A model generated the notes under the pieces. It saw only the letters and a list, made by a program, of their open reading frames with translations. It was not told the DNA's origin and searched no databases. Source: Renibacterium salmoninarum ATCC 33209 (GTDB taxonomy: Bacteria; Actinomycetota; Actinomycetes; Actinomycetales; Micrococcaceae). From it: a stretch of 64,000 bases of DNA. The translations under genes were made by a program, and so were the position numbers. The stretch's first letter is position 1; each line of letters begins with the position of its first letter. The DNA lies in assembly GCF_000018885.1 (NCBI RefSeq), contig NC_010168.1:2108001-2172000 (forward strand). The letters run 5' to 3'. This document shows, one piece after another, positions 39,153 to 63,810 of the stretch.

Positions 39153-40136
39153 TCAGAGAACCCTGTCGAAAGCCATTGATCGTCGAACCGCGCTGTAGCC
39201 CATTCGCTCGTAAAGCGTATTTGCGCCGGTTGGGTTTTCAGTATCTACGTCCAAAGAGGCCACATCCATTCCCGCCGCCCTGAATCTGCGCATGGCTTCA
39301 GCCAACAAAGCCGCAGCGATCCGGCATCCTCGGTAAGCTCTTCGAACTCCGATCAGCTCGGTATAGCCTTCTTTGCGGCCAAAACTGCTGAAGATATCTT
39401 GGTCATAACTGGCCAGCTGATAACCCGCCACTTCCCCGGTTGAAGCGTCCAAAACCACCAAACTCCAATCCGCACGGAAAAGTGGGTGTTCTACGGTATC
39501 TCGCCAAGTTTCCAGATCACGCGTTTCCGAACCCCAATGGTCAGCGAAGACTTCGTTATGCGCCAATCGAACAGCTTCCGAATGCTCCGAGGAGAAAGTA
39601 GTGACCACCAGGTTTTCGTCAAGATCGATGACCGGAATCTCTTCGGATAACGGCCGATGCATTTCGGAAAAATAGCGAACGATATTGAACCCGTTTGCGG
39701 TGAACAACTCTTGGGCAACCGGGTTGTTATCCTCAGCGTAAGTGCGGGCAATTTCTGGGCTCTGCTGACGGGCGGAAAATCGATGCGCTACCCGCTCAAG
39801 CTGCCACTTAAGTAACGCCGAGCCAATACCCCGACGTTGCCACTCCGGATCAACCCCGCCAGAGACATAGGCTTTAGCACCCTCAGGGTTCTTACGAACT
39901 TGAGCAAACGCCCGAGGAATCCCTCCGTGGTCAACACCAATTACGGTATCGAGCAATGGATCATTTTTGCTCGAGTTCAAGGAGTTTTCTAAATCTTCCA
40001 GCTGGTCGTGCCAAGGAGCTTTTTCTGCGGAGAAAATACGTAAGATCAGTTCGTACCATTGCGCCAAGTCGGCTTTTTCAATGGGGCGGAATTCCAATTC
40101 CGAGCCCACAGCAGTGTCCAATCCAGGCAAGTTCAT
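39153..40136 (-). CDS. Tandem GNAT acetyltransferase, mycothiol-synthase-like
   Basis: 327 aa with two GNAT domains. The first (about 12-165) has the acetyl-CoA loop VDPEWQRRGIGSALL. The second (about 170-325) has VRRAYRGCRIAAALLAEAMRR and the closing NPTGANTLYERMGY. Length and two-domain layout resemble MshD, which makes mycothiol, but this looks like a paralogue and its substrate is unknown. Its ATG overlaps the cydDC stop (ATGA), so it is translationally coupled to the cytochrome bd assembly exporter. CydDC exports thiols in E. coli, which makes the link suggestive. Confidence 0.82.
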   Translation of the reverse strand: MNLPGLDTAVGSELEFRPIEKADLAQWYELILRIFSAEKAPWHDQLEDLENSLNSSKNDPLLDTVIGVDHGGIPRAFAQVRKNPEGAKAYVSGGVDPEWQRRGIGSALLKWQLERVAHRFSARQQSPEIARTYAEDNNPVAQELFTANGFNIVRYFSEMHRPLSEEIPVIDLDENLVVTTFSSEHSEAVRLAHNEVFADHWGSETRDLETWRDTVEHPLFRADWSLVVLDASTGEVAGYQLASYDQDIFSSFGRKEGYTELIGVRRAYRGCRIAAALLAEAMRRFRAAGMDVASLDVDTENPTGANTLYERMGYSAVRRSMAFDRVL

Positions 40137-43100
40137 ACCCCAACCCTATCGTTGACACCGTCAGCTCCGCTCGCAGATTTGACGCCGAGTTTCAGCTGAA
40201 TATCAGTAGCCTGAACGTCCTGCGGTCGGTGAGTAATGAGAACAACGGTTTTCGCCCGCAAACTACTACGCAAGTCCGACATTAGCGCCGCAGCAGAGCC
40301 GGCATCCAAATGCGCTGTCGGTTCATCAAGTAACACGACGTCTGCCCGGGTAAGCAATGCCCGAGCCACGGCGATCCTTTGCCTCTGACCACCAGATACC
40401 AACCCGCCGGCGTCGCCCAATCGAGTTTCCAGACCAGCGGGCAAGTGGCTAAGCCACTGTGCAAGTCCAACTTCATGTAGTACCTGGTGCAGTTCGAGTT
40501 CGGAAGGCGGATCAGATTTTTTCCGCGCGAGCGCCAGGTTTCCGCGAAGTGTCGAGTTGAAAAGATGCGCTTCTTGCGGACACCAGGCGATACTCCCATG
40601 CACTGCCACACGGCCAGAGACGGGTGCGGTGAAGCCCATTAGAGTAGCCAGAAATGTAGATTTTCCAGCGCCGGATGGACCCGTCACGGTGAGCCAGTCC
40701 CCTTGGGCAAGCTCGAGGTCGATGCCATCGGCAACGCTGAGGCCCTGCCATCCGATGCTGAGTTGCCGGGCTTGAATGGTGTTGTTCGATGTTGCCACTG
40801 GTACGTGCGGAAGCTCCGGCACTTGTAGTTCCCTAGCAACCGAACGCCACAGTCGGCGCAGTAGTGGCAGACCGGGCGCAGATTGCACCAAAGGTGAAAA
40901 GACGTCCAACAAGCCAAGCTGAAGCAAGACCAGCGCAACTAAAACTTCAATTCGAAGCTGCCCGCTAGTGACCAACGGTGAGCCTAACGCGATCATGCCG
41001 ACGGAACCCGCGCACGCAAGAGTGGTGAGCAGTGCCAAACCTAGACCTTCGGCCCAAGCACCGCGTTGCGCCAGAGCCGTCGATTTTCGGTCTAAGGCAA
41101 ACAGCCTGCTAAGCAAAGGCTGTTCGATGCCATTGCTGCGAAGTTCAGCGGCCGAGCCCAGCAACACGGTCAACTCGCTTATCAGCTTGCTCCGTTGCGC
41201 CTGTTCTTGGTTCCGAGATCTGCTATCCGCCCACAACGCAACGGCTGGGCAGAGCAACACTGCGCCTAGCAGGATCACCACCTGAAAACCGAGCGCCTGC
41301 GGAAACAATAACGAGGTGCTGACAATCACGGCAACAGCAGCCAAGACCGCGGTTATCGGAGGCAAGAGTACCCTGGGCGCCAAATTTCGCAGTGCGTCCA
41401 CATCACCGATCAATCGAGGTAATACAGAGTCCCCCCGGCTGAGCTCCCGGTTAGCGGGCAACGACTTGCTTAGCGCGTCCCAAAGCCTGCCGCGCAACCG
41501 ATCAGCGGCAGCGAACATCGACTGATGGGTGTTGAGCCGCTCGACGTATCGGGCGACGGCGCGCAGCAAGCCAAAGAACCTCACTCCCACAATTGCGGTG
41601 AGTAAGTAGAGCACCGGTGGTTGTTGGCTCGCGCGAACAATTAGCCAGCCGGAAAGTGCCGTGAGTGCGAGCGCGGCCAAAGACGCTATGACACCGAAGA
41701 AAATCGACCCTAAAAATGCTGGTAGCCAAGGTTGTAAAATGCGCAAGAACTGGACGATCCCTGGCACTAAAGTAGTTTTGAATCGTTGCTCACTAGTTAC
41801 CGTTGACTGCTGATCGATAATGCTGCTGTCAACGCCGCTGCTGTCATTTCGACGGCCGTCTTCATCGCCCGGCGCGAGCGGTTCCTGGGCCGGCGGTAAG
41901 ACCTCTGCGCGGGAATCCAGCCCCGGATCAGCATTGCTTGTCGGGGCCACCAACTCAAGCTGTTGGTCGGCAAGGGCCAGAACTCTGGCGTCGTGGCTGA
42001 CTATCAGCACCGTCGCCCTGCCACGAAGCGATATCAGGGCATCTTCGATAAGTCGGGCCGAGGCCGCGTCCACGTGCGCGGTTGGCTCGTCCACCAGTAC
42101 CTTATCCGCTCCGCAGTCAACTCGAACTAGCACCCGTGCCAAGGCCAAACGTCGGAGCTGACCAGGGCTGAGCCATGCTGGATGCTGATTTTCTCGGCCA
42201 GCCAGCCCCACTGATGCTAAAACCTCAGCGGCCGACTGTGGGTCGATGGCCCCCCAGAGCAGAAGTTCCTGCATGACGCTGCGCTCAGTGCTACCTGGAT
42301 CCTGTGGCAACCAGGCCACATGCTTGGCATCAATCCCGCGCACGCTCCCGGCTAGATCTGCTTCAGCCGAAGTCACCGTGCCGATCAGGGCGCCTAGCAA
42401 AGTGGACTTACCACAGCCACTGGCACCTGAGATTGCCAGAATCTTTCCCCGTGGAACGGAAAAACTTACCCCCGACAGGGCTGGTACTGCTCGATCGAGG
42501 TATCGGACGCTTAACTCCGAGACATTCAGTTCTGCCCCCTTGCCGCCGGTCGTTGCGAGGCGATCACCGATCGGAGCGGCTAATTCTTCTTTGCTGCGCC
42601 GCATCGCCTCGCGTCCGTCGTCACTCGCGTGGAAGGCCGTGCCCAGCTCACGCAACGGCAGGTAGCACTCTGCCACCAAGATCAGCACCAGGAGCCCCGT
42701 CCCGAGATCAAGCTGGCCATAGACAAGCCACACTCCGATGAAAACTGCGACCAACGCAACCGATAACGTCGCAATCAGTTCCAAAGCGAGCGCCGAAAGA
42801 AAGGCCACACGCAACGTCGCCATCGTCGTGCGTCGATAATCGTTGCCCAGCCGATCTAAAGCTGCGCGTTGTTCGCGGGCTCGACCTAAACCAATAAGTA
42901 CCGGCAGTCCGCGCGCTAACTCGGTCAGTTGGCTGGAGAGCCTGAGTAAAGCACCGGTTGCCTGGCTCACCTTGTCTTGCGTGAACCACCCGATCAGGGC
43001 CATGAAAACCGGCACCAACGGAACGGTAAGAACCACGATTAGCGCACTGACCCAGTCGGCGGCCAAAATTCTGACACCGATAATGGCCGGAACCGTGGCG

Positions 43101-43492
43101 GCGCTGACCAGGGCTGGCAAATACTGATGGTAATAGCCATCAAGCGCGTCCAATCCGCTGCTTGCCAGCACCGTCGCACCTCCACGCTGATTTGCTTGCT
43201 CAGAGCCTGCTCTAGCAATCCAATGCTGAGTCAGCTCAACGCGAAACTGTTCTTTGGCACCTAATGCGGTTCGTTTCGCGCTGACCTGCACCGCCCAAAC
43301 CATCACTGAGCGGACGACGGCGGCTGCCGCAGCAAGGCTCAATGAAGCCAGCACCGGGGTGCCGTTGATCGCAGCGACAATTGAACTGGCCAGGCCATCG
43401 GCGAACACCACCATTGCAGCAGCTTTGATGGCGTTGAGCAGCCCGAGCAAATAGATGCCCGGCATACTGGAACGGGGAATTTCGGGTTTCAC
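40133..43492 (-). CDS. cydDC: Thiol reductant ABC exporter, CydD-CydC fusion
   Basis: 1119 aa: two complete ABC half-transporters in one chain. The CydD half has six membrane segments, Walker A SGASGCGKSTLL (about 350), signature LSPGQLRRLALAR and Walker B KVLVDEPTAH. A 60-residue linker follows, then the CydC half with membrane segments (about 590-870), Walker A TGPSGAGKSTFL, signature VSGGQRQRIAVAR and VVLLDEPTAH. In E. coli separate CydD and CydC are needed to mature cytochrome bd and move thiols or haem. The start is GTG, 9 nt after the cydB stop. It is followed, with overlap, by the GNAT gene. Confidence 0.94.
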   Translation of the reverse strand: MKPEIPRSSMPGIYLLGLLNAIKAAAMVVFADGLASSIVAAINGTPVLASLSLAAAAAVVRSVMVWAVQVSAKRTALGAKEQFRVELTQHWIARAGSEQANQRGGATVLASSGLDALDGYYHQYLPALVSAATVPAIIGVRILAADWVSALIVVLTVPLVPVFMALIGWFTQDKVSQATGALLRLSSQLTELARGLPVLIGLGRAREQRAALDRLGNDYRRTTMATLRVAFLSALALELIATLSVALVAVFIGVWLVYGQLDLGTGLLVLILVAECYLPLRELGTAFHASDDGREAMRRSKEELAAPIGDRLATTGGKGAELNVSELSVRYLDRAVPALSGVSFSVPRGKILAISGASGCGKSTLLGALIGTVTSAEADLAGSVRGIDAKHVAWLPQDPGSTERSVMQELLLWGAIDPQSAAEVLASVGLAGRENQHPAWLSPGQLRRLALARVLVRVDCGADKVLVDEPTAHVDAASARLIEDALISLRGRATVLIVSHDARVLALADQQLELVAPTSNADPGLDSRAEVLPPAQEPLAPGDEDGRRNDSSGVDSSIIDQQSTVTSEQRFKTTLVPGIVQFLRILQPWLPAFLGSIFFGVIASLAALALTALSGWLIVRASQQPPVLYLLTAIVGVRFFGLLRAVARYVERLNTHQSMFAAADRLRGRLWDALSKSLPANRELSRGDSVLPRLIGDVDALRNLAPRVLLPPITAVLAAVAVIVSTSLLFPQALGFQVVILLGAVLLCPAVALWADSRSRNQEQAQRSKLISELTVLLGSAAELRSNGIEQPLLSRLFALDRKSTALAQRGAWAEGLGLALLTTLACAGSVGMIALGSPLVTSGQLRIEVLVALVLLQLGLLDVFSPLVQSAPGLPLLRRLWRSVARELQVPELPHVPVATSNNTIQARQLSIGWQGLSVADGIDLELAQGDWLTVTGPSGAGKSTFLATLMGFTAPVSGRVAVHGSIAWCPQEAHLFNSTLRGNLALARKKSDPPSELELHQVLHEVGLAQWLSHLPAGLETRLGDAGGLVSGGQRQRIAVARALLTRADVVLLDEPTAHLDAGSAAALMSDLRSSLRAKTVVLITHRPQDVQATDIQLKLGVKSASGADGVNDRVGV

Positions 43493-43501
43493 GGCAGGCT
43501 C

Positions 43502-44503
43502 CTAGTGTGCCGGAAGGCTCTTGGTACTGATTCGTTTCCGAAAAACCCAGTAAGTCCAGCCCTGGTAAGCAAGCACTAGCGGAACACCAAAACAAGCGAT
43601 GATGCTGATCAATCCGAGGGTGTATTCGGAAGCCGATGCGTTCTGCACGGTCAGGTTAAACTCTGCGGAGAGCGTCGACGGCAAAACGTTCGGGAACAGA
43701 CTGAAAAATATTGTCGCGAATACGCTGAGAAGAAAAACTCCACAGCCCAAGAATGCCCAACCTTCTCGATGTTTCTTGGCAGCAAAAATTGCGCTGTCTA
43801 CCGCAACGACCGCCAGTCCAATCAACAACCAGCCAAGCGGCTTCGCATTGATGATCTGCACTGCTATCGCCCAAACGAGCATAGGTAATAAGGCTAGTGG
43901 TGCGGCTCGGCGAAAAAGCATACGAGCTCGGACTCGCACGGTACCATCGGTTTTCAAGGCCAAAAATGCGGCCGCGTGGACAAGGCAAAACAGCAGCACA
44001 GCAGCCCCGCCCAACATTGCGTATCCGTTGAACCAGGCAAAAGCACCACCGACTCGGTCTCCGTTAGCGTTCAGCGGCAGCCCGGTGCTGGTCAATGCCA
44101 AGGTTGCACCGATGCCGAATGCCGACGTTGCTGAACCGAGCAGAATGGCCCAATCCCAGGTGTTCTGCCACCGTGGAGAAGCCACTTTGCCACGGTATTC
44201 AAAAGCGACGGCACGGAAAATCAGACCAAGCAATACGAAGATCAGCGGCAGATAGAGCGCCGAGAGCAAGGAAGCGTACCAAAGCGGAAAGGCGGCAAAG
44301 GTCGCCCCAACAGCGGTAATAAGCCAGACCTCGTTGCCGTCCCAGACCGGGCCCACTGTGTTGAGCAGCACGCGGCGTTCCTCATTATTGCGGGCAAAGA
44401 GTTTCATCAGCATGCCAACGCCTAAATCGAATCCCTCTAAGAAGAGGTAACCAGTCCACAGCACCGCGATGACCACAAACCACAAAGTTGGTAGGAATTC
44501 CAT
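43502..44503 (-). CDS. cydB: Cytochrome bd ubiquinol/menaquinol oxidase subunit II
   Basis: 333 aa with about eight or nine membrane helices. It starts MEFLPTLWFVVIAVLWTGYL, followed by the conserved FLEGFDLGVGMLM and GPVWDGNEVWLI. These are signatures of CydB. It forms the bd oxidase with CydA in the cytoplasmic membrane, reducing oxygen to water with high affinity. It lies 78 nt downstream of cydA and 9 nt upstream of cydDC. Confidence 0.96.
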   Translation of the reverse strand: MEFLPTLWFVVIAVLWTGYLFLEGFDLGVGMLMKLFARNNEERRVLLNTVGPVWDGNEVWLITAVGATFAAFPLWYASLLSALYLPLIFVLLGLIFRAVAFEYRGKVASPRWQNTWDWAILLGSATSAFGIGATLALTSTGLPLNANGDRVGGAFAWFNGYAMLGGAAVLLFCLVHAAAFLALKTDGTVRVRARMLFRRAAPLALLPMLVWAIAVQIINAKPLGWLLIGLAVVAVDSAIFAAKKHREGWAFLGCGVFLLSVFATIFFSLFPNVLPSTLSAEFNLTVQNASASEYTLGLISIIACFGVPLVLAYQGWTYWVFRKRISTKSLPAH

Positions 44504-44581
44504 TAGCTCGTCTCCTTTAGATCGGCAACCGGCATCTCGAGCTGCAATCCTGGCCCGGCCTGCTCAGCGGTAATAGACCGC

Positions 44582-46192
44582 TCAGTAAGCAAAGGCGAGT
44601 ACATCGTCGTCGTCCTTGTTCTTGGTCCCGTCGGTTTCATCGTCGTTCTCGCTATCAGGTGGCGTTGCTAGCTCGGGCATTGCAGAGAGCACGCCGCCCC
44701 GGACGTATTTGAAGAGCAGAAACACTTCGACAATCAGCAGGACCGCATAGACCGCGACGAAAGCCACCAAAGAAAAGATCAGCTCGCCCACGCTCACCCC
44801 GGGAGAAACGGCAGCAGCGGTGAACATGAACACCGGATCGATGCCGGTCATTTGCGGATTAGGCGCTACAACGAAGGGCTGGCGGCCCAACTCGGTAAAG
44901 ATCCATCCCGCAGAGTTGGCGCCAAAGGGGGCGAGGATGCCGAATACTGCTAGCCGCATGAGCCATTTGGATTCTGGTACCGTGCCTCGGCGGGCAATAA
45001 AGAACGCCACAAATGCTGCCAATGCCGCGATGCCACCGAAACCGATCATCATCCGGAATCCCCAGTAGGTCACTGCCATCACCGGTACGTATTGAATCGG
45101 CTGCCCGGCTCGATCGCCGTAGATCGGGTTATCTGGCAGGTTTGTGCCATATTTCGCCTGGTACTCAGGCAGCAAAGAGTTCACGCCTTTGACTTCGGTA
45201 CTGAAATCACCGTGCGCCAGGAAGGACAACAGCCCGGGGATTTCGATGACGGCGGCAACGTCATTACAGTTTTTCGCGCCGACGTCGCCAATGGATAGCA
45301 CGGAGAAGCTAGTGCCGTTCTGGCAAGCAGCCTCTGCCGCGGCCATCTTCATGGGCTGCTGCTCGAACATCAATCTGCCCTGTAAATCGCCGCTGATCGC
45401 AGTTCCAGCAAAGGCGATCATGGCCACCACCGCACCAATCCGCAGCGAACGGATCCACACTTTATGGTCAGTCTTGTCCCGACCGGGGTGCTGTACCTTG
45501 CCGTTGACGACGGCGCTCTCACCGACGACAACTCGCTTCTTGGCGTCAACGGTATCGATGCCAAGCTTGCGCCGCTTCCACAGGTGGTACCACGAGATGC
45601 CGAGCAAGAAGCCACCCGCTACGGCAAGCGCACCAAAGATTGTGTGTGGAAAAGCAACCAATGCAGTGTTGTTAGTGAAGACCGCCCAAGCATCGGTCAT
45701 TCGGGGCCGGCCATCGACTACTGTGACGCCCACCGGATGTTGCATCCAAGAATTAGCAACCAAGATGAAGTAAGCGCTCACCACCGAGCCCAACACAGCA
45801 ATCCAAAGGCAGACTAGATGGATTTTCGCGGGTAGTTTCTTCCAGCCAAAGATCCACAAGCCAAGAAACGTTGATTCGACGAAGAAGGCCAGTAATGCTT
45901 CCATTGCCAGCGGCGCGCCAAACACATCACCAACGAATCGGCTGTACTCACTCCACGCCAGGCCAAACTGGAACTCTTGTACCAGCCCAGTCGCGACGCC
46001 CAGAATGAAATTGATCAGGAATAGCTTCCCCCAGAACTTAGTCATTCGGAGATACTCGGGCTTTTTGTTCCGCAACCAGAAGGTTTGCAGTACGGCTATC
46101 AAAAGGCCCAGGCCGATAGTGAGCGGAACCATCAGGAAGTGGTAAACGGTAGTGATGCCGAATTGCCACCGAGCGATATCGAGAGCTTCCAT
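44582..46192 (-). CDS. cydA: Cytochrome bd oxidase subunit I
   Basis: 536 aa. Haem ligand His19 is in TTVYHFLMVPLTIG; further motifs are GLVQEFQFGLAWSEYSRFVGDVFGAPLAMEALLAFF in consecutive pieces and TELGRQPF, the GRQPW-like site. A short hydrophilic Q-loop around residues 250-340 is present. The C-terminus is acidic (EDDDVLAFAY region). It oxidises quinol and, with CydB, reduces oxygen. The upstream region holds the TTCTAC/GTAGAA palindromes shared with the divergent blaI-like gene, so cyd expression is likely repressed by that protein. Confidence 0.96.
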   Translation of the reverse strand: MEALDIARWQFGITTVYHFLMVPLTIGLGLLIAVLQTFWLRNKKPEYLRMTKFWGKLFLINFILGVATGLVQEFQFGLAWSEYSRFVGDVFGAPLAMEALLAFFVESTFLGLWIFGWKKLPAKIHLVCLWIAVLGSVVSAYFILVANSWMQHPVGVTVVDGRPRMTDAWAVFTNNTALVAFPHTIFGALAVAGGFLLGISWYHLWKRRKLGIDTVDAKKRVVVGESAVVNGKVQHPGRDKTDHKVWIRSLRIGAVVAMIAFAGTAISGDLQGRLMFEQQPMKMAAAEAACQNGTSFSVLSIGDVGAKNCNDVAAVIEIPGLLSFLAHGDFSTEVKGVNSLLPEYQAKYGTNLPDNPIYGDRAGQPIQYVPVMAVTYWGFRMMIGFGGIAALAAFVAFFIARRGTVPESKWLMRLAVFGILAPFGANSAGWIFTELGRQPFVVAPNPQMTGIDPVFMFTAAAVSPGVSVGELIFSLVAFVAVYAVLLIVEVFLLFKYVRGGVLSAMPELATPPDSENDDETDGTKNKDDDDVLAFAY

Positions 46193-46227
46193 TTCAACCT
46201 CTTCTACGTCTTGTTTAGAAAAACAGT

Positions 46228-46254
46228 GTAGAACATTTTCTACTGCTCGTAGAA
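46228..46254. promoter_or_regulatory. Operator array for a BlaI-type repressor between cydA and blaI-like gene
   Basis: Half-sites GTAGAA-N4-TTCTAC-N5-GTAGAA overlap at 46228-46254, giving two interlocked palindromes (46228-46243 perfect, N4; 46238-46254 perfect, N5). A further TTCTAC half-site is at 46202-46207. It is 36-62 nt before cydA and 83-109 nt before the divergent regulator. BlaI/MecI/CopY repressors bind such TAC-rich dyads as dimers. The N5 form recurs at 63436-63452. Confidence 0.65.
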
Positions 46255-46336
46255 ATTAGCGCAAAAACGCGCTACATTGGTATCTGCAGTATTGGCGATC
46301 ATGCTAGAAAATATTTCGTAAGAGTTGAGGATAAAA

Positions 46337-46708
46337 ATGGCGACGTTGGGCGAATTGGAGCGATCCGTGATGGATCTGCTGTGGCAACAGCCAGCACCGC
46401 TCACTGCCAACGAGCTGCGGGATCTGCTCTGCCACTTGGAAGCATCGCAAGGTAAGGAACTCGTGGTGACCACGGTGTTGACGGTGCTCTCCCGGTTAGA
46501 GAAAAAGGGTTTAGTCGAGCGCGAACGCGATATTCGTCCGCACCGCTACCGCGCTGTTACTTCGCGCGAAGAGCACACCGCAGAACTTATGCATGAAGTA
46601 CTGGGCTCAGCACCAGATCGCGAAGCGGTGCTGGCACGATTCATCGGTTCAGTATCCGCTGATGAAGCTTCCACACTACGCAAACTGCTGGGCTACAACG
46701 AGCGCTAG
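46337..46708 (+). CDS. BlaI/MecI/CopY-family transcriptional repressor
   Basis: 123 aa from ATG 46337, chosen because TTGAGG lies 6-8 nt upstream; an in-frame TTG at 46325 is weaker. The winged-helix domain (about 1-75) has LGELERSVMDLLWQQ, TVLTVLSRLEKKGLVERERD and the wing RPHRYRAV. The C-terminal dimerisation helices follow. Such repressors are inactivated by proteolysis after signal from an M56 partner, and the next gene encodes one. It is divergent from cydA and the shared region carries palindromes, so it probably represses itself and cyd. Confidence 0.9.
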   Translation: MATLGELERSVMDLLWQQPAPLTANELRDLLCHLEASQGKELVVTTVLTVLSRLEKKGLVERERDIRPHRYRAVTSREEHTAELMHEVLGSAPDREAVLARFIGSVSADEASTLRKLLGYNER

Positions 46709-46738
46709 CTGATACGGAGCAGAGACTGAGGTCGACTC

Positions 46739-47695
46739 TTGGGTCTTGACCCGCTCACAACAACCGCTTGGGTGCTTGCGGCGCTCGCGGTCATTTTGGC
46801 TTGGCCAGCTCCTTTGGTGCTTTCTCGCGCGCATTGGCCGCGACGCTCCCCTGCCATGGCAATGATTCTCTGGCAGGCAGTTGGCCTTGCTGGCGGATTG
46901 TCTATGATCGGCGCCATGCTGACCTGGGGATTGGCGCCGCTAGGAAGCAATATTCTGGCCGCCTTTGGCCGGTTGATAGACATCGTCTTTTTCAATGCGC
47001 CGATCGGCGGGCTGCGGTTCTGGCATGCTTTCGCCCTTTCTGCTGCTGGGCTGTTGGGTGCACATCTGCTCTTCACCTTGCTGCTCACCTACGTACGGAT
47101 CCAACGGCAACGCAGCCGGCACCGGGAGCTGCTATTACTACTTTCCTCGCCATCAGCGGAGCGCCCCGGCACCGTTGTGATCAACCACGCTGCACCAGTC
47201 GCGTATTGCCTGCCAGGTGGTGCTCGATCGGTCACGGTGCTCTCAGATGGTTTGCTGAAGCTCTTCAAACCAGAAGAACTTCAAGCCGTGTTGACTCATG
47301 AACAAACGCATCTCTTGCAACGGCACCATCTGCTCCTATGGGCCTTCGCCGCCTGGAAATCTGCACTACCGTGGCTGCCGACCTCACGACTTGCGCAAAG
47401 CGCGGTCAACGAACTGATCGAGATGCTTGCCGACGACGCCGCCCTCTGCGAGGTGCCAGAGCCCACCTTAGTGCGCTCCATTGCTTTAGTAGCCTCTGGC
47501 TCGGCACACAGCCCGTCTCCGGCGCCCTCGTCGGATAATCCAGACTCGGATGGCACCACGGCGTCCAGAATTCAACGGCTGATTCACCCGGAACCACCAT
47601 TAGCTGCGCCGTTACGGGCGCTCATATTGGTCGGCTCGCTGTTACTACTAGCAGCACCAACCGCGCTGCTAGTTATCCCAGCACTCCTCAGCTAA
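46739..47695 (+). CDS. M56-family membrane metallopeptidase (BlaR1-like, no sensor domain)
   Basis: 318 aa from TTG 46739 with GAGG upstream. Membrane segments flank a cytosolic zinc-protease domain with the HExxH motif LTHEQTHLLQRH (about residues 185-196) and the third-ligand region NELIEMLADDAAL. Four or so helices are predicted, the last near the C-terminus. Classical BlaR1/MecR1 have an added extracellular penicillin-binding sensor of about 250 residues, absent here, so it must sense something else. It sits 30 nt downstream of the blaI-like gene and is the likely protease partner. Confidence 0.88.
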   Translation: MGLDPLTTTAWVLAALAVILAWPAPLVLSRAHWPRRSPAMAMILWQAVGLAGGLSMIGAMLTWGLAPLGSNILAAFGRLIDIVFFNAPIGGLRFWHAFALSAAGLLGAHLLFTLLLTYVRIQRQRSRHRELLLLLSSPSAERPGTVVINHAAPVAYCLPGGARSVTVLSDGLLKLFKPEELQAVLTHEQTHLLQRHHLLLWAFAAWKSALPWLPTSRLAQSAVNELIEMLADDAALCEVPEPTLVRSIALVASGSAHSPSPAPSSDNPDSDGTTASRIQRLIHPEPPLAAPLRALILVGSLLLLAAPTALLVIPALLS

Positions 47696-47704
47696 ATATT
47701 CCAG

Positions 47705-47765
47705 AACGCTGCACAACTTTTCGGCCTTAAACATTCGTTTTAAGGCCGAAAAGTTGTGCAGCGTT
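47705..47765. terminator. Long hairpin between the M56 gene and parE
   Basis: A perfect 27-bp inverted repeat (47705-47731 and 47739-47765) with a 7-nt loop lies between convergent genes, as expected for a bidirectional terminator. Its outer arm AACGCTGCACAACTTTTCGG is nearly the same as in the hairpin at 11011-11075. Confidence 0.8.
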
Positions 47766-47784
47766 TGAAGTTTCTGGCTGTGGA

Positions 47785-49896
47785 TTAGGCGTCGAGGCGT
47801 TCCCGATCGAGCATTGCCGAGCCGGCGATAATAAATTCTTTGCGCGGTGCGACGTCGGAGCCCATGAGCAGCTCAAAAGTCTTCTCGGCCGCCTCAGCAT
47901 GTGTTGCGGTAACTCTGCGCAAGGTTCGATGCCGTGGATCCATCGTGGTTTCGGCCAGCTGATCGGCATCCATTTCGCCCAGACCCTTGTAACGCTGGAT
48001 CGGCTCTTTGTAGCGCTTGCCCTCTTTTTCTAACCGCTTGAGCAAGTCATTGAGCTCATTTTCGGTATAGGTGTAAATCAACTCATTCGCCTTTTGACCA
48101 TGATTGATTACCTCAACTCGATGCAGCGGCGGCACTGCGGCGTAAACGCGGCCAGCATCAATCATCGGGCGCATGTAGCGGAAGAACAACGTCAGCAAAA
48201 GAGTGCGAATATGTGCCCCGTCGACGTCGGCATCCGTCATGACAATGATCTTGCCGTAGCGTGCGCCCTCAATGTCGAAGGAACGGCCAGACCCGGCGCC
48301 AACCACTTGGATGAGCGCCGCGCATTCGGCGTTGGAGAGCATATCCCCCACCGAAGCCTTCTGCACGTTCAGGATCTTGCCACGTATCGGCAGCAAAGCT
48401 TGGAAGTCGGAGGAACGAGCCAGTCGTGCGGTGCCCAGCGCGCTGTCGCCCTCCACGATGAACAATTCCGTGCGCTCAGTTTCTTCGGACCGGCAATCCG
48501 CCAATTTAGCGGGTAGCGAAGAGGTTTCCAAGGCATTCTTGCGCCGCTGAGTTTCTTTGTGTACCCGCGCCGAAATCCGCGACTTCATTTCGGAAACAAC
48601 TTTTTCCAATAACAACGCCGATTGGGCCTTGTCATTGCGATTCGACGAATTCAGCTTCGCGGTAATTTCTTGCTCAACCACTTTGGCCACAATCGCACGC
48701 ACTGCAGGCGTGCCAAGAACCTCTTTGGTCTGGCCTTCAAACTGGGGCTCGGCCAGTCGCACGGTGAGCACCGCCGTCAACCCGGCCTGAACATCATCCT
48801 TTTCGATCTTGTCGTTTCCGGCCTTGAGCTTGCGGGCATTCGCTTCAATGACTTTGCGGAAAGTCCTCAACAGCGCTTGCTCAAAACCTTCTTGATGCCT
48901 GCCGCCCTTTGGCGTGGAAATGATGTTGACGAAGCTGCGCATCGTGGTCTCGTAACCGATGCCCCAGCGTAAGGCAATATCCACTTCACAATCGCGCTCG
49001 ACCTCAGTTGGCATCATGTGGCCATTATCATCAAGCACCGGGACGGTCTCTTTGAAGCTCGCGGTGCCGTGTAATCGCCAAATATCCGTTACTGGTGCAT
49101 CGACAGCTAGGAAATCTACAAACTCTGAGATACCGCCGTCGTGATGAAACACCTCTTTGTGCGGACCTAACTCGCCCGCAGTATTAGCTAAGCCTCGTTC
49201 GTCCCGAATGGTGATCCGCAGCCCCGGGACTAAGAAAGATGTTTGCCGCGCCCTAGCGGCAAGCTCCTCGTAGGAGAACTTCGCATCCGGGGTGAAAATC
49301 TGTTGATCCGCCCAATATCGAATTCGAGTTCCGGTAACGCCACGTTTCGTAGTACCAATAACACCGAGTACCGACTTTTGTACGAAAGGCTCAAAGGTCG
49401 AATTGGGGCTCAGCGAACGCCCGGTTTCTTTGAAGACTCCCGGCTCACCGCGACGGAATGACATTTGGTATGTTTTGCCACCGCGATCAACTTGAGCATC
49501 CAGGCGAGCCGATAGCGCGTTGACGACGGAAGCGCCGACGCCGTGCAAGCCGCCGGAAGCAGCATAAGAGGACCCACCAAATTTTCCACCAGCATGCAGT
49601 TTGGTCAGCACAACTTCGACGCCGGTCAAGCCAGTTTTCGGCTCAATGTCGACCGGAATACCACGCCCATCGTCGTGCACTTCGACGGAATTGTCCTTGT
49701 GTAAAATCACCAGAATCTTCTGGCCGAAACCGCCCAGCGCCTCATCGACGGCGTTGTCGAGAATCTCCCAAAGACAATGCATCAAGCCACGGGAATCGGT
49801 GGAGCCGATATACATACCCGGCCGTTTGCGCACCGCGTCCAGCCCTTCGAGAACTGAAAGGTGGCGGGCGTTGTAATCGGATTTTGTGGCGGCCAC
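47785..49896 (-). CDS. parE: DNA topoisomerase IV subunit B
   Basis: 703 aa. The GHKL ATPase part has LDNAVDEALGG, DDGRGIPVD and GLHGVGASVVNALS. The TOPRIM domain has EGDSALGTARLARSSDFQA and the metal site MTDADVDGAHI. The C-terminus has QRYKGLGEMDADQL. It is the ATPase partner of ParC, placed 12 kb away and opposite in orientation. The downstream neighbours DUF7455 and sigA are typical of Arthrobacter-like genomes for the parE gene. GyrB would also have these motifs; context decides. Confidence 0.9.
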   Translation of the reverse strand: MAATKSDYNARHLSVLEGLDAVRKRPGMYIGSTDSRGLMHCLWEILDNAVDEALGGFGQKILVILHKDNSVEVHDDGRGIPVDIEPKTGLTGVEVVLTKLHAGGKFGGSSYAASGGLHGVGASVVNALSARLDAQVDRGGKTYQMSFRRGEPGVFKETGRSLSPNSTFEPFVQKSVLGVIGTTKRGVTGTRIRYWADQQIFTPDAKFSYEELAARARQTSFLVPGLRITIRDERGLANTAGELGPHKEVFHHDGGISEFVDFLAVDAPVTDIWRLHGTASFKETVPVLDDNGHMMPTEVERDCEVDIALRWGIGYETTMRSFVNIISTPKGGRHQEGFEQALLRTFRKVIEANARKLKAGNDKIEKDDVQAGLTAVLTVRLAEPQFEGQTKEVLGTPAVRAIVAKVVEQEITAKLNSSNRNDKAQSALLLEKVVSEMKSRISARVHKETQRRKNALETSSLPAKLADCRSEETERTELFIVEGDSALGTARLARSSDFQALLPIRGKILNVQKASVGDMLSNAECAALIQVVGAGSGRSFDIEGARYGKIIVMTDADVDGAHIRTLLLTLFFRYMRPMIDAGRVYAAVPPLHRVEVINHGQKANELIYTYTENELNDLLKRLEKEGKRYKEPIQRYKGLGEMDADQLAETTMDPRHRTLRRVTATHAEAAEKTFELLMGSDVAPRKEFIIAGSAMLDRERLDA

Positions 49897-50202
49897 GTGG
49901 AGGCGCTCCTTCGAAGGTCATACAGTGCCAGTTTCCTGGACATATTGAGCTTTTTCAGACTATCGCTTTCCAAGCTGCTCGCAGCGCAGGCTGGCCGTAC
50001 GACGCCTCAGATAACGGCCAAGCCGTGTCCTGAGGATTCGGCGAAAAGTGGACGTTTATGAAATTGCAATACGCGGACAGCGAAAGAAGACCCAGCCTGA
50101 GATGGTTTGGAACCGCATAATGGTTGTATAGATGTACAAGCATTAGAGCTGGAGCACCTGTAGAGGCGAAAGCGTCACGGGGCCAGAAATGAAGGAGGGG
50201 TC
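49897..50202. other. Intergenic region upstream of the DUF7455 gene and of parE
   Basis: 306 nt between divergent genes. It should hold both promoters. On the plus strand, GTATAGATG around 50127-50135 could be part of a -10 region for the DUF7455 gene, whose ribosome site AAGGAGG is strong. I see no other structure. Confidence 0.5.
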
Positions 50203-50427
50203 ATGACAACGGCAATTATAAGTCGTGAACTGAATGCTTTGGATCGCTGCGATCGTTGTGGCGCACAAGCTTATGTCAGGGTAGTCCTTGAGTCCTCTGG
50301 CGGAGAACTTCTATTCTGCGCGCACCATGCACGCGCAGTTGAAGCGACGCTAAAACCGATTTCGGGACAGTGGCACGATGAGACCTCCCGGTTGTTTGAA
50401 AAAGCACCGGTTCTTATCGAGGACTGA
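50203..50427 (+). CDS. DUF7455 family small zinc-finger-like protein
   Basis: 74 aa with a strong AAGGAGG 7 nt before ATG. Two pairs of potential metal ligands, CDRCG and FCAHH, form a likely zinc ribbon. The sequence ALDRCDRCGAQAYVR is typical of the actinobacterial DUF7455 family found between sigA and parE. Function unknown. A 17-bp hairpin terminator follows. Confidence 0.85.
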   Translation: MTTAIISRELNALDRCDRCGAQAYVRVVLESSGGELLFCAHHARAVEATLKPISGQWHDETSRLFEKAPVLIED

Positions 50428-50453
50428 GCAACTATGTACTGAACAATCGTGTT

Positions 50454-50491
50454 AAGAAAGGCACCTAGCGCAATCGCTAGGTGCCTTTCTT
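50454..50491 (+). terminator. Terminator after the DUF7455 gene
   Basis: Perfect 17-bp stem (50454-50470 with 50475-50491), loop CAAT, arm AAGAAAGGCACCTAGCG, ending in TTTCTT. An outer CTGAACA...TGTTCAG pairing may extend it. Confidence 0.88.
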
Positions 50492-50658
50492 GTTCAGTCT
50501 GTGTTCGAGTTAGCAGCTAATAAGTTGGTTGCATCGTGGCGACAATATCCCACGGAGTTGGTATTCTCGGAGGGACATACCCATTTCTTCCCAGTGAAAA
50601 TGCTAGCTAGGTGGGAAATCGTGGAAAAGCACCAGGCTCCTTGGGAATGAACTTGGGA

Positions 50659-50698
50659 ATGAAAAGGAGCGGGCCCACAGGGCGCCGCTCCTTTTCAT
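50659..50698 (-). terminator. Terminator of the sigma factor gene
   Basis: 14-bp stem (50659-50672 with 50685-50698), arm ATGAAAAGGAGCGG, 12-nt loop. It lies 43 nt past the sigma factor stop on the minus strand. Confidence 0.78.
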
Positions 50699-50740
50699 GA
50701 AGATATGCGAGACTTTCGCAACGGCTATCGCCGAAGATTT

Positions 50741-52129
50741 TTAGTCCAGGTAGTCGCGCAATACCTGAGAACGCGAGGGGTGACGCAACTTAGACATCGT
50801 CTTGGATTCGATCTGCCTAATCCGCTCGCGCGTGACTCCGTAGACTTTACCGATTTCGTCTAAAGTCTTCGGCTGGCCATCAGTAAGTCCGAAACGCATT
50901 GCGACGACGCCCGCTTCACGCTCCGAGAGCGTGTCAAGCACCGAATGTAATTGCTCCTGCAACAAGGTGAAGCTAACTGCGTCAGCCGGTACAACGGCTT
51001 CAGAGTCCTCGATCAAGTCGCCAAACTCTGAATCGCCGTCTTCACCCAGGGGCGTGTGCAATGAAATCGGTTCGCGACCGTACTTCTGTACCTCGACGAC
51101 CTTTTCAGGAGTCATGTCGAGTTCAAGCGCCAATTCTTCCGGCGTAGGTTCCCGACCCAGGTCTTGCAGCATCTGGCGTTGTACCCGAGCAAGCTTGTTG
51201 ATCACTTCAACCATGTGCACCGGAATACGAATGGTGCGAGCTTGGTCAGCCATTGCCCGCGTAATTGCCTGGCGGATCCACCAAGTCGCGTAGGTGGAGA
51301 ACTTGAAGCCCTTGGTGTAGTCGAATTTCTCAACCGCACGGATCAGGCCCATGTTGCCCTCTTGGATCAAGTCCAAGAACAACATTCCACGACCGGTGTA
51401 ACGCTTCGCAAGCGAAACAACGAGTCGCAAGTTCGCTTCGAGCAAGTGGTTTTTTGCCCGCTTACCATCGTGGATAACCCACTGATATTCGCGGTTTAGC
51501 TTCTCGGTGATCTTGCCATCATCAGCTGCAAGCTTTTCTTCCGCGTACAGACCGGCTTCGATCCGCAGAGCCAAGTCGACTTCCTGCTCAGCGTTAAGCA
51601 GCGCGACTTTACCGATCTGCTTCAGATAATCTTTGACCGGGTCCGCCGTTGCGCCCGCGGACATAACCTGCTGCACCGGCGCATCGTCGTCGTCAGCATC
51701 TGAATAAACAAAACCTGATCCGGCAGTTTCTTCGGCTTCTTCCGGAGCGTCTGCAGTTTCGGTCTCCGCCGAATCCGCTACGCCTTCAGTGCTTTCGTCA
51801 TCAGCACTCTCCGCGGAGTCATCCGCTTTAGGCTTGCGTCCACGCGTCGGCTTTACTGCGGCGTCATCTTCCGAGAGCGCAGCTTTCTTCGCGGCTGCAG
51901 TAGCAGCTCGCTTCTGTGCCGGTGTGAGTTTTTCTTCGATTGTGACAGCGTCAGGGATTTCGGTTACCTTCTTCGCGGAGGGCTTCTTAGCAGCCAGGGT
52001 TTTAACAGCCGCAGTCTGAGCGACAGGGGCGTCCTTCACCGCGGCGCGGGTGCGAGCCGTGGATGTTTCAGCCGAAGCGGAATCCTCGGGGGCAGCGGTT
52101 GCGCTGATCTTCCGTGCAGTTGGAGACAC
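50741..52129 (-). CDS. rpoD: Primary RNA polymerase sigma factor (RpoD/SigA/HrdB)
   Basis: 462 aa. An Ala/Lys- and acid-rich leader (about 1-150) is typical of actinobacterial primary sigma factors. Region 1.2 ([16 protein letters not shown]), region 2 with [20 protein letters not shown] and [13 protein letters not shown], region 3 and region 4 with the [19 protein letters not shown] are all present. The C-terminus SQVLRDYLD is canonical. It directs RNA polymerase to housekeeping promoters. A TTGACA (52186-52191 on the minus strand) with an upstream 11-bp dyad may belong to its promoter. Confidence 0.96.
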
Positions 52130-52473
52130 TGATTACCTTTCCTTGCAGCTTGTAGTGTTACCTGCGCGCAACACCACTATGACCCTGTCAAGTCCGTGAT
52201 CGTCATCACTCACGATCGCGGACAGCAGAGTCAGTATGTAGAACTGCTGAGAGCGGCTTCTCGTTCCCAAATTGCTAAAGGTAATTCGAGCTCGAAGCTA
52301 CGTGAATAACTCACGGACCCCACCGGGTCGTCCTGATATTGTCTCACGGATCTTCGAGCTCTTAGAATCGACGCGGCCGAACGCTGCACGCCGTTCCCGA
52401 AATTAACTGAATACCAGCCGTGAAAATGCCCAGTAGCCATTTCTTTACACAAGACAATCGTTAGCTGCTAAAT
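52130..52473. other. Intergenic region upstream of rpoD
   Basis: 344 nt between the end of the broken DUF4192 gene and the rpoD start. It holds the dyad at 52193-52222 and a TTGACA that may be the rpoD -35 element. An open frame at 52231-52452 on the minus strand has no protein-like features. Confidence 0.55.
52193..52222 (-). promoter_or_regulatory. Dyad upstream of a TTGACA element before rpoD
   Basis: TCCGTGATCGT and ACGATCGCGGA face each other across 8 nt (10 of 11 pairs). On the minus strand this dyad directly precedes TTGACA at 52186-52191. It could be an operator for the rpoD promoter. No clear -10 hexamer was found at standard spacing, so the assignment is weak. Confidence 0.3.
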
Positions 52474-53671
52474 CTATGCGACGTTGGGCCCGTGCTGTTG
52501 CCAAGCAGTTTTTGGATCCTTTGCCCAATGACAGAGCACCCCTTCAGCTAGTAGTTCATCAAAGAGTTCGGCCAGTCGGTACCGCGGTACTACGGCCAAC
52601 GCAGAGTCCACATAGCATCCAGCCTTGCTACCTCGACCTTTACACCATTCCAGCCAGGCAAGAATGCTCAGCACGGCTGCACTTGCCGTCCTGACACTGT
52701 CGCCGTCTTGGGCTGACGGTTCCGATAAATGAGCTGCCGATAATGACCTCTGCTGCGGTGAAGTCGCAAGGTTCAGCACACACACGGCAGCAATCTGACG
52801 AAGAATTTCCTCAAAGCGAGTCAGCCGGTCCCAAGGTGGCGCAATCTCCGGACTACCAAGAAGTAGCTCAGTAGATTTTGGCAAGTTGGCTTGTTCGCGG
52901 TCGGTTAAAGCCGACACCATCACAGCATCTCGCAAGTAAATATTCGCAAGCGTGGCGCCCAAATATCCCAAGGACTCCGCGGTTTCGATTCGAGATCCGA
53001 ATTGCGTCGACCTCGCGACGTCCCAGGCGCGTAGCGCCGACTCAAAAGTCGGCTCGTCAAAACGAAGCAAACCAACTTGAGCAACTTCGCGCCGTAGGAC
53101 CTTTCGTGCCCTAGACCTTTTCGTGGCGCTTACCGAGGGCAAAGTCATCGCGGACGGCAGATCCGCATCGTAACTACTCCCCCGAAAAATCAGTTCTGCA
53201 CTCATGGTGCTTTCACGGACATTTTGCAAATTTTGTCCGCTCAAAGAACAGCATTCCTCGTCCCGGCAGAGATAATCACGCCAATTGCTTTCACCGACCC
53301 ACCACGCATCACGCAGCGGCATTCCCACTTCAGAAAGCGTCACGCCCAGCATCAACAACAACTGATCGAACCCAGGATCCACCGAATCGTTCCAGTCCAT
53401 CCCGGTATTATAGGACAGCCAGCGAACCATCCGCGCGGCCGTCGAGCCTGAGGTGGCTGGCAATCTGCTCGGAAAATTCACGATAGTCGGACATATCTCC
53501 GCCCCGAGCCAGCAAATCTAAGCGCAAGCTAGCTCCAACCCGATTGCCAGAGATTGCAAGCACCACCAACGACATCTCCGGCCAGTAACCAAGAGCGTGC
53601 GGCACATAAGCCAAAATATCTTGCGGCTGGCTAGCTGAAATTAGATTGCTTGAAGCTGATGAAGAGTTCAT
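52474..53671 (-). pseudogene. DUF4192 family protein, frameshifted
   Basis: The N-terminal ORF (from 53671) has the family start ISASQPQDILAYVPHALGYWPEMSLVVLAISG and ends ADGSLAVL, in consecutive short pieces. The main part resumes in another frame with SYNTGMDWND, GMPLRDAWWVGESNWRDYLCRDEECC and STMSAELIFRGS. A 2-nt deletion (or 1-nt insertion) at about 53410 explains the break. The full protein would be about 395 aa. DUF4192 is an actinobacterial family of unknown function often beside sigA. The 335-aa ORF could start internally but would lack the first domain. Confidence 0.83.
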
Positions 53672-63435: not shown

Positions 63436-63452
63436 TTCTACGTCCCGTAGAA
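63436..63452. promoter_or_regulatory. Second copy of the BlaI-type operator TTCTAC-N5-GTAGAA
   Basis: Perfect 6-bp half-sites separated by 5 nt (GTCCC). The same spacing and half-sites occur at 46238-46254 next to the blaI-like gene. It ends 7 nt before the ATG of the membrane-protein gene. The hexamer TAGAAT (63448-63453) inside it could be a -10 element, in which case the mRNA may be leaderless. Confidence 0.6.
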
Positions 63453-63459
63453 TATTTTT

Positions 63460-63810
63460 ATGGACTTCGTCAAATACTTATTGATATTTCTGCACATTCT
63501 GGGTGGCGCGGCAATCGTGGGCGGCTGGTTCGCCAACTTTAAAAAGCCCACCATCTTGCCCATCCAACTCTGGGGCGCAATTGCGCAACTTGTCACCGGA
63601 CTGGCACTGGTTTGCCTAGCGGGAGCCACGCACGCGCCGTTGAACTACATCAAGATCACCGTCAAACTGTTGATCGCCATCGTGGTTTTGGTGCCAGCGA
63701 TCATTGGCTTCCGTAAAGCACAAAAGAACGAGCCGGTTTCCACCGGGCTGGCACACGCCGTTGGCGGAATGGCCCTGATCAATATCGCAGTGGCAACGCT
63801 CTGGCACTAA
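63460..63810 (+). CDS. Small four-helix membrane protein
   Basis: 116 aa with four hydrophobic segments at about residues 5-23, 36-56, 64-85 and 96-114. The beginning FVKYLLIFLHILGGAAIVGGWFA has a His in the first helix (HILGG), as in some haem- or quinone-associated membrane families, but I do not recognise the family. No clear ribosome site precedes the ATG. An operator palindrome shared with the cydA/blaI region lies directly upstream, so it may belong to the same regulon. Confidence 0.75.
   Translation: MDFVKYLLIFLHILGGAAIVGGWFANFKKPTILPIQLWGAIAQLVTGLALVCLAGATHAPLNYIKITVKLLIAIVVLVPAIIGFRKAQKNEPVSTGLAHAVGGMALINIAVATLWH

Follow-up and report, generated by a model that had tools for sequence, protein, structure and literature searches.

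A BlaI-linked operator dyad at the cytochrome bd operon of Renibacterium salmoninarum and at respiration and haem-protein genes of its relatives

We have analysed a stretch of 64,000 nucleotides from Renibacterium salmoninarum (the window), which lies within a single contig of 3,155,250 bases, and found that the gap between cydA and a divergent blaI gene carries a dyad, TTCTAC-N5-GTAGAA, that recurs before blaI in most genomes of the family. We consider it likely that a BlaI dimer on this dyad controls the cyd operon, its own blaI-protease operon and a wider set of respiration and haem genes, and that the partner protease relieves this control when respiration is impaired. The operator, the link to BlaI, the target genes and the architecture of the protease are computed here, and from these we infer binding, repression, cleavage and the signal.

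A preliminary description of this DNA had read GTAGAA-N4-TTCTAC-N5-GTAGAA between cydA and a divergent blaI gene, and both the letters and the gene layout proved exact (46228-46254). The letters run GTAGAA (46228-46233), CATT, TTCTAC (46238-46243), TGCTC and GTAGAA (46249-46254), and an additional TTCTAC at 46202-46207 was absent from that description. The gap is flanked by cydA (44582-46192, minus strand) and blaI (ATG at 46337, plus strand), and the zinc-protease gene then follows blaI. The features of the window that concern us are the following.

40133..43492, minus strand: fused cydD-cydC exporter gene (TIGR02857 and TIGR02868, over cut-off)
43502..44503, minus strand: cydB, cytochrome bd subunit II (PF02322, 337.1 bits)
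44582..46192, minus strand: cydA, cytochrome bd subunit I (PF01654, 506.9 bits)
46202..46207: TTCTAC half-site, remnant of a third dyad, whole in L021 and L022 (alignment)
46228..46233: GTAGAA half-site, remnant of a dyad kept whole in two congeners (alignment against L021 and L022)
46238..46254: intact operator dyad TTCTAC-N5-GTAGAA in the cydA-blaI gap (exact match and conservation before blaI)
46273..46278, plus strand: TACATT, putative -10 of the blaI promoter, 18 nt past the operator (inferred role)
46337..46708, plus strand: BlaI-type repressor gene, 123 codons (PF03965)
46739..47695, plus strand: BlaR1-type membrane zinc protease, 318 codons, without sensor domain (profile and fold comparison)
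63436..63452: second exact dyad of the window, ending 7 bp ahead of an ATG (exact match)
63460..63810, plus strand: 116-aa membrane-type protein (4TM), with a dyad at the equivalent place in relatives (no Pfam match)

A perfect inverted repeat with 27-nt arms and a 7-nt loop (47705-47765) is also present between the protease gene and a convergent topoisomerase-type gene, and is probably a two-way terminator.

The preliminary description had proposed interlocked palindromes in the gap. On the one hand, GTAGAA-N4-TTCTAC has a single exact match in the window, and at up to two mismatches it has 4 matches where 0.98 are expected, a number that none of 100 shuffles reaches. On the other hand, we collected 104 blaI loci, one per family genome (BlaI of at least 90 BLAST bits, own locus included, five further family BlaI matches being left out as weak), and within 400 bases before blaI the N5 dyad stands in 99 of them, often in two or three copies, whereas GTAGAA-N4-TTCTAC is found in 11, where two dyads stand close. 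When gaps of 0-30 bases from TTCTAC to GTAGAA were counted upstream of the 104 genes, 205 were of 5 bases, two were of 6 and the rest were of at least 20. We conclude from this comparison that conservation falls on the 17-bp dyad TTCTAC-N5-GTAGAA and that GTAGAA-N4-TTCTAC is the junction of neighbouring half-sites, so that of the two proposed palindromes the N5 dyad is retained and the N4 form is rejected as an operator. At exact stringency the conservation of the N5 dyad is far beyond chance, and the 3.155-Mb genome holds it at three exact places. Loose matching was rejected as proof: at up to two mismatches there are 63 dyad matches in the genome against 130 for the reversed control pattern, and loose matches carry no meaning alone because the control outnumbers them.

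Among the same 104 loci, cydA lies within 600 bp in divergent orientation in 93, blaI is followed by a protease match in 102, and five have no dyad before blaI. Two congeners, whose BlaI is 94% identical, keep three intact dyads, whereas the window keeps one together with two half-sites. At the position of TACATT, the pattern TA...T recurs across 94 loci (T 74%, A 80%, last T 74%). At cydA the dyads come in pairs, 41 of the 70 being 24-25 bp apart from centre to centre, and alongside them we saw no shared -10 on the cydA side. In six other loci (L124-L129), more distant BlaI-type genes (37-40% identity) are followed by a protease match and preceded by no TTCTAC-N5-GTAGAA.

The presence of the dyad follows BlaI. 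In 120 family genomes, 108 of the 109 with a BlaI match carry the exact dyad, compared with none of the 11 without one (Fisher p ~1e-14), and in 149 genomes of the order it is carried by 22 of the 23 with BlaI at 150 bits or more, compared with 4 of the 126 others (p ~3e-21), although both p-values overstate independence because the genomes are related. All four of the latter belong to family f15 and have a weaker BlaI match. Six family genomes lacking BlaI have a long cydA match and zero dyads (G033, with a cydA match of only 27 residues, was excluded), whereas six with BlaI and without a cydA match have 5-15 dyads each. The exceptions are G090 and G124, in which BlaI is present and the dyad absent, and in family f6 two of seven loci (L244, L245) are without a dyad. 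On these counts, the dyad is linked to BlaI rather than to cydA in family genomes, and the earlier suggestion that the BlaI-type protein acts at cydA and at its own promoter gains support from genome comparison. The genus g13 (G012, G042, G066, G089, G107) has 9-15 exact dyads per genome and a cydA that is distant or unmatched; the sites fetched from it, which are a part of those in G012, G042 and G089, include those of a ctaB-type gene, ctaC, sdhC, isocitrate lyase, hemQ and an ABC ATPase gene.

BlaI itself matches PF03965 over residues 4-118 (77.7 bits, cut-off 22.6) and is the sole match to this profile in its genome. Its score against TIGR02698 of NCBIfam (CopY/TcrY) is 29.2 bits, below the cut-off of 121.95. 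The Phe of the cleavage site in Staphylococcus aureus is invariant in 13 aligned rows, and the residue before it is not Asn in our BlaI. The closest solved structure is 2g9w (E 7.6e-20), which we take to be Rv1846c. As for the neighbouring protease, the preliminary description had assigned it to family M56 and had noted that it lacks the beta-lactam sensor. The M56 profile stays under its cut-off (PF05569, 20.2 bits against 31), whereas the M48 profile exceeds it (PF01435, 37.6 bits against 20.3); the protein carries an HExxH zinc site on a core of transmembrane helices and metalloprotease domain, and its best fold match is the transmembrane and zinc domain of BlaR1. No penicillin-binding sensor domain was matched by Pfam, and in the loci of the taxonomic family at most 189 residues (median 139) follow HExxH. 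Judged by its predicted architecture, the partner is a BlaR1-type membrane protease with no room for a beta-lactam sensor domain, as had been noted.

The three exact sites of the R. salmoninarum genome are located in the cyd/blaI gap, in the gap between hemQ and a gene that we read as protoporphyrinogen-oxidase-like, and at 63436-63452 before the 116-aa gene. There are nine one-mismatch sites, three of which stand at promoters that are marked in relatives and were annotated here: one precedes an atpI-like ORF followed by atpB, one an ABC ATPase gene and one the gene of a 130-aa protein. The first has a glycosyltransferase-4 gene on one side and the atpI-like ORF on the other; the gene order is presumably alike here and in Mycobacterium tuberculosis. 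Among 15 own-genome loci at one or two mismatches (L005-L019), six contain a homologue of a labelled gene somewhere, with the site upstream of it in L007, L009 and L013 and on the wrong side in L010, L015 and L017. The site of L009 (1501-1517; G000:C1:1982685) is a one-mismatch dyad between a gene for a penicillin-binding protein with a MecA_N domain and the divergent ABC ATPase gene.

To describe the target genes in the family, we fetched every exact site (108) of 19 genomes, which were not random but mostly listed first or chosen by hand, and assigned a site to a labelled gene when it lay at most 400 bp upstream, with 60 bp of overlap allowed. A small recurring set of labelled genes accounts for 105 of the 108 sites, the other three being without assignment. 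cydA and/or blaI have 44 sites, hemQ 18, hmp 11, a membrane-type protein of ~130 aa (MSP) 10, the 116-aa protein (4TM) 7, histidine phosphatase/YceI 4, a globin-like ORF 3 and a flavin-oxidase-type protein 2; lactate dehydrogenase, hemA/hemE, an ABC ATPase, ctaC, an atpI-like ORF (an exact site, in G008) and a dihaem cytochrome c have one each. Of the 19 genomes, 17 have a cydA match, and the dyad marks cydA in all of these. Pfam profiles back the labels hemQ, Hmp (by both its globin and its reductase domains), hemA, hemE, ctaC, cytochrome c, lactate dehydrogenase, histidine phosphatase, YceI, the flavin-oxidase type and the ABC ATPase, whereas the globin-like, atpI-like, 116-aa and ~130-aa proteins have no Pfam match over cut-off and are named from a reading of their sequences. 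The marked genes sdhC, ctaB-type and isocitrate lyase come from genus g13, outside the 19. The 116-aa protein (window 63460-63810) and the ~130-aa protein (L188 1551-1940) have sites in 7 and 10 of the 19 genomes, respectively. A known function was sought for both, and no Pfam match over cut-off supplied one; these two small membrane-type proteins may be respiratory accessory proteins.

The labels were derived from the same loci, and we therefore tested them on eight family genomes that had played no part in the labelling, which hold 24 sites away from cydA and blaI. Sixteen of these 24 sites were labelled, against a background of 12% of locus positions and 0 of 6 decoys. The labels are hmp (4), hemQ (3), ABC ATPase, flavin-oxidase type and 130-aa protein (2 each), and the 116-aa protein, histidine phosphatase/YceI and a weak universal-stress match (one each). 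hemQ is marked in 18 of the 19 genomes of the first set compared with 3 of the 8 fresh ones. Outside the family, only two of nine fetched sites away from blaI were labelled (Hmp at L266 and a weak 25% match at L269), and for this reason we claim the wider regulon for the family only. Within it, these gene labels indicate that the regulon is wider than cyd and that a set of respiration and haem-protein genes stands under the same dyad. Of the two-gene module inducing cyd that had been proposed, the dyad at cydA stands; the module does not serve cyd alone, since the dyad also precedes hemQ, hmp, cytochrome genes and others and is retained by the six BlaI genomes without a cydA match. The proposed respiratory rather than beta-lactam setting agrees with the predicted identities of the dyad-marked genes, and the earlier interpretation is, overall, partly supported.

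cydA is also marked in its own right. In G004 and G035, cydA and blaI are on separate contigs and two dyads lie 58-89 bp upstream of cydA, and a distant cydA (41% identity) in G042 has two dyads at 149 and 172 bp. When genome_contigs (84,980 species according to its description) was scanned for two dyads 3-33 bases apart, at least 120 stretches were returned. Among the 120 listed, 103 adjoin cydA: 93 adjoin both cydA and blaI and 10 cydA only, with 7 adjoining blaI only and 10 neither. With a stricter BlaI threshold, the 80 titled stretches of these 120 divide into 61, 8, 5 and 6, respectively. Titles among the listed stretches include Arthrobacter, Cryobacterium, Leifsonia, Geodermatophilus, Blastococcus and Pseudonocardia, and the six titled stretches adjoining neither gene are outside Actinobacteria by title. 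Among the soil relatives that share this locus are Paenarthrobacter nicotinovorans (L342), Arthrobacter oryzae (L307) and Pseudarthrobacter sulfonivorans (L295). Tandem dyads without cydA or a profile BlaI match were observed, among the listed stretches, in L284, L299, L304, L324, L331 and L348, whose titles name Clostridia, Prolixibacteraceae, Verrucomicrobiales, Oscillospiraceae and Marinifilum. In a class-level search limited to the best-scoring 24 new BlaI loci (~108-132 bits), 12 have a cydA-like gene in the 3-kb locus, nine of which start in divergent orientation no more than 200 bp from blaI. AC-N5-GT dyads, some with half-sites TACTAC or TACGAC, lie upstream in 21 of these 24 loci, and loose AC-N5-GT dyads do so in 7 of 7 loci of family f14, both being raw loose counts without a chance control. 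We tentatively raise, as a possibility that we hold to be somewhat doubtful, that in ancestral Actinobacteria BlaI and a sensor-less BlaR-type protease served as master regulator of both aerobic respiration and the supply of haem proteins, with a coupling to cydA over much of the class, and that the control of beta-lactamase in mycobacteria would be a later borrowing.

In the mechanism that we favour, a BlaI dimer would bind the dyad in the cydA-blaI gap and control both the cytochrome bd operon and the blaI-protease operon. Through the same dyad it would reach, in its own genome, hemQ and the small membrane protein (exact sites) and probably the ATP-synthase operon (one-mismatch site), and in relatives hmp, cytochrome and globin-like genes as well. 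On the blaI side, the operator covers the predicted -35 position and therefore fits repression by occlusion. The BlaR1-type protease, with its transmembrane helices and zinc site and without a beta-lactam sensor, most likely removes BlaI by cleavage. The inducing condition would probably be an impaired aerobic chain, through nitric oxide, low oxygen or a blocked haem-copper oxidase, and on removal of BlaI the bd oxidase and the haem supply would rise together.

Other explanations have to be considered. According to the available passages on the PetR-PetP system of Synechocystis, a BlaI-family factor is paired with a BlaR1-type protease, copper activates PetP and PetR is degraded. By analogy, copper could activate the protease here, the module could swap the copper-free cytochrome bd for a copper oxidase, and the signal would be the copper supply. 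The copper-oxidase subunit gene ctaC (G008, G089) and a multicopper-oxidase gene (L253) are near sites; however, hmp, hemQ and the globin-like genes, which are not copper genes, recur more often, and we consider such a copper switch unlikely. PetR is also described, in the same passages, as repressing petE and activating petJ, which raises the idea that BlaI represses some promoters and activates others, possibly cydA. The pairing of the dyads at cydA and the lack of a visible shared -10 on that side are in keeping with this idea, but the operator at the -35 of blaI and the dyad 7 bp before the start codon at 63436 both fit repression, and dual regulation seems to us improbable.

The usual description of BlaI-BlaR would make this a module for envelope or beta-lactam stress, with respiration as a side target. 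It can point to the one-mismatch site beside the MecA_N penicillin-binding protein gene and to M. tuberculosis, where BlaI also controls blaC according to the available text. However, the protease is without the sensor domain, none of the three exact own-genome sites stands at a cell-wall gene, and no beta-lactamase was recognised among the ORFs of 40000-53000, five of which were scanned with Pfam; we give this explanation little credence. That the dyad is read by another regulator, with BlaI as a bystander, is very improbable, considering that the dyad tracks BlaI and not cydA in the 120 family genomes and tracks BlaI again in the 149 genomes of the order.

Control of respiration by BlaI on the dyad, as we prefer to read it, is of a kind already known, because BlaI has been described at the cyd and atp promoters of M. 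tuberculosis. In passages citing Sala 2009, BlaI of the BlaI-BlaR pair (Rv1846c-Rv1845c) binds the cytochrome bd and ATP synthase promoters, and BlaR is without a sensor domain; BlaI is also described as binding the promoter of Rv1303, which is co-transcribed with the ATP-synthase genes. The two systems share the sensor-less protease and sites at the cytochrome bd and ATP-synthase operons (with one mismatch at atp here), but differ in that blaI is divergent from cydA here, the operator is defined, exact sites stand at hemQ, hmp and other genes, and no blaC-type target was found among the three exact sites. What our comparison would add is the operator, the regulon and the wide linkage to cydA. 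PetR-PetP, as described, resembles the present pair in standing beside electron-transfer genes, where it is described as swapping a copper protein for a haem protein, but its targets are different. With BlaI-BlaR1 and MecI of S. aureus, our system shares the repressor family (the profile matches MecI and BlaI chains at E 4e-7 to 4e-6), the protease fold and the Phe at the cleavage site; unlike them, it has no beta-lactam sensor domain, and it has respiratory targets and TTCTAC half-sites with a 5-base spacer. The CopY/TcrY copper repressors belong to the same superfamily and give a sub-threshold NCBIfam match, but a membrane protease and not a copper pump follows the gene here, and the score is under the cut-off. 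Passages of PMC5473688, PMC5874750, PMC12565901, PMC7924339, PMC8265638, PMC9834060, PMC13421787, PMC7896320 and PMC7771538 were consulted, and the matching passages of PMC10581053 concern blaIII. Among the matches listed by the literature search, we found no paper in which BlaI controls cyd or haem genes in Micrococcaceae and none on the present operator or regulon.

In summary, this study provides an operator and a gene list that are ready to test for a family of repressors whose known role lies mainly in antibiotic resistance. It would place the BlaI family where the terminal oxidase is chosen and where haem synthesis ends, and offers a possible reason for the reported presence of M. tuberculosis BlaI at ATP-synthase and cytochrome bd promoters. 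The question of what a sensor-less BlaR senses may thereby become approachable in harmless soil relatives.
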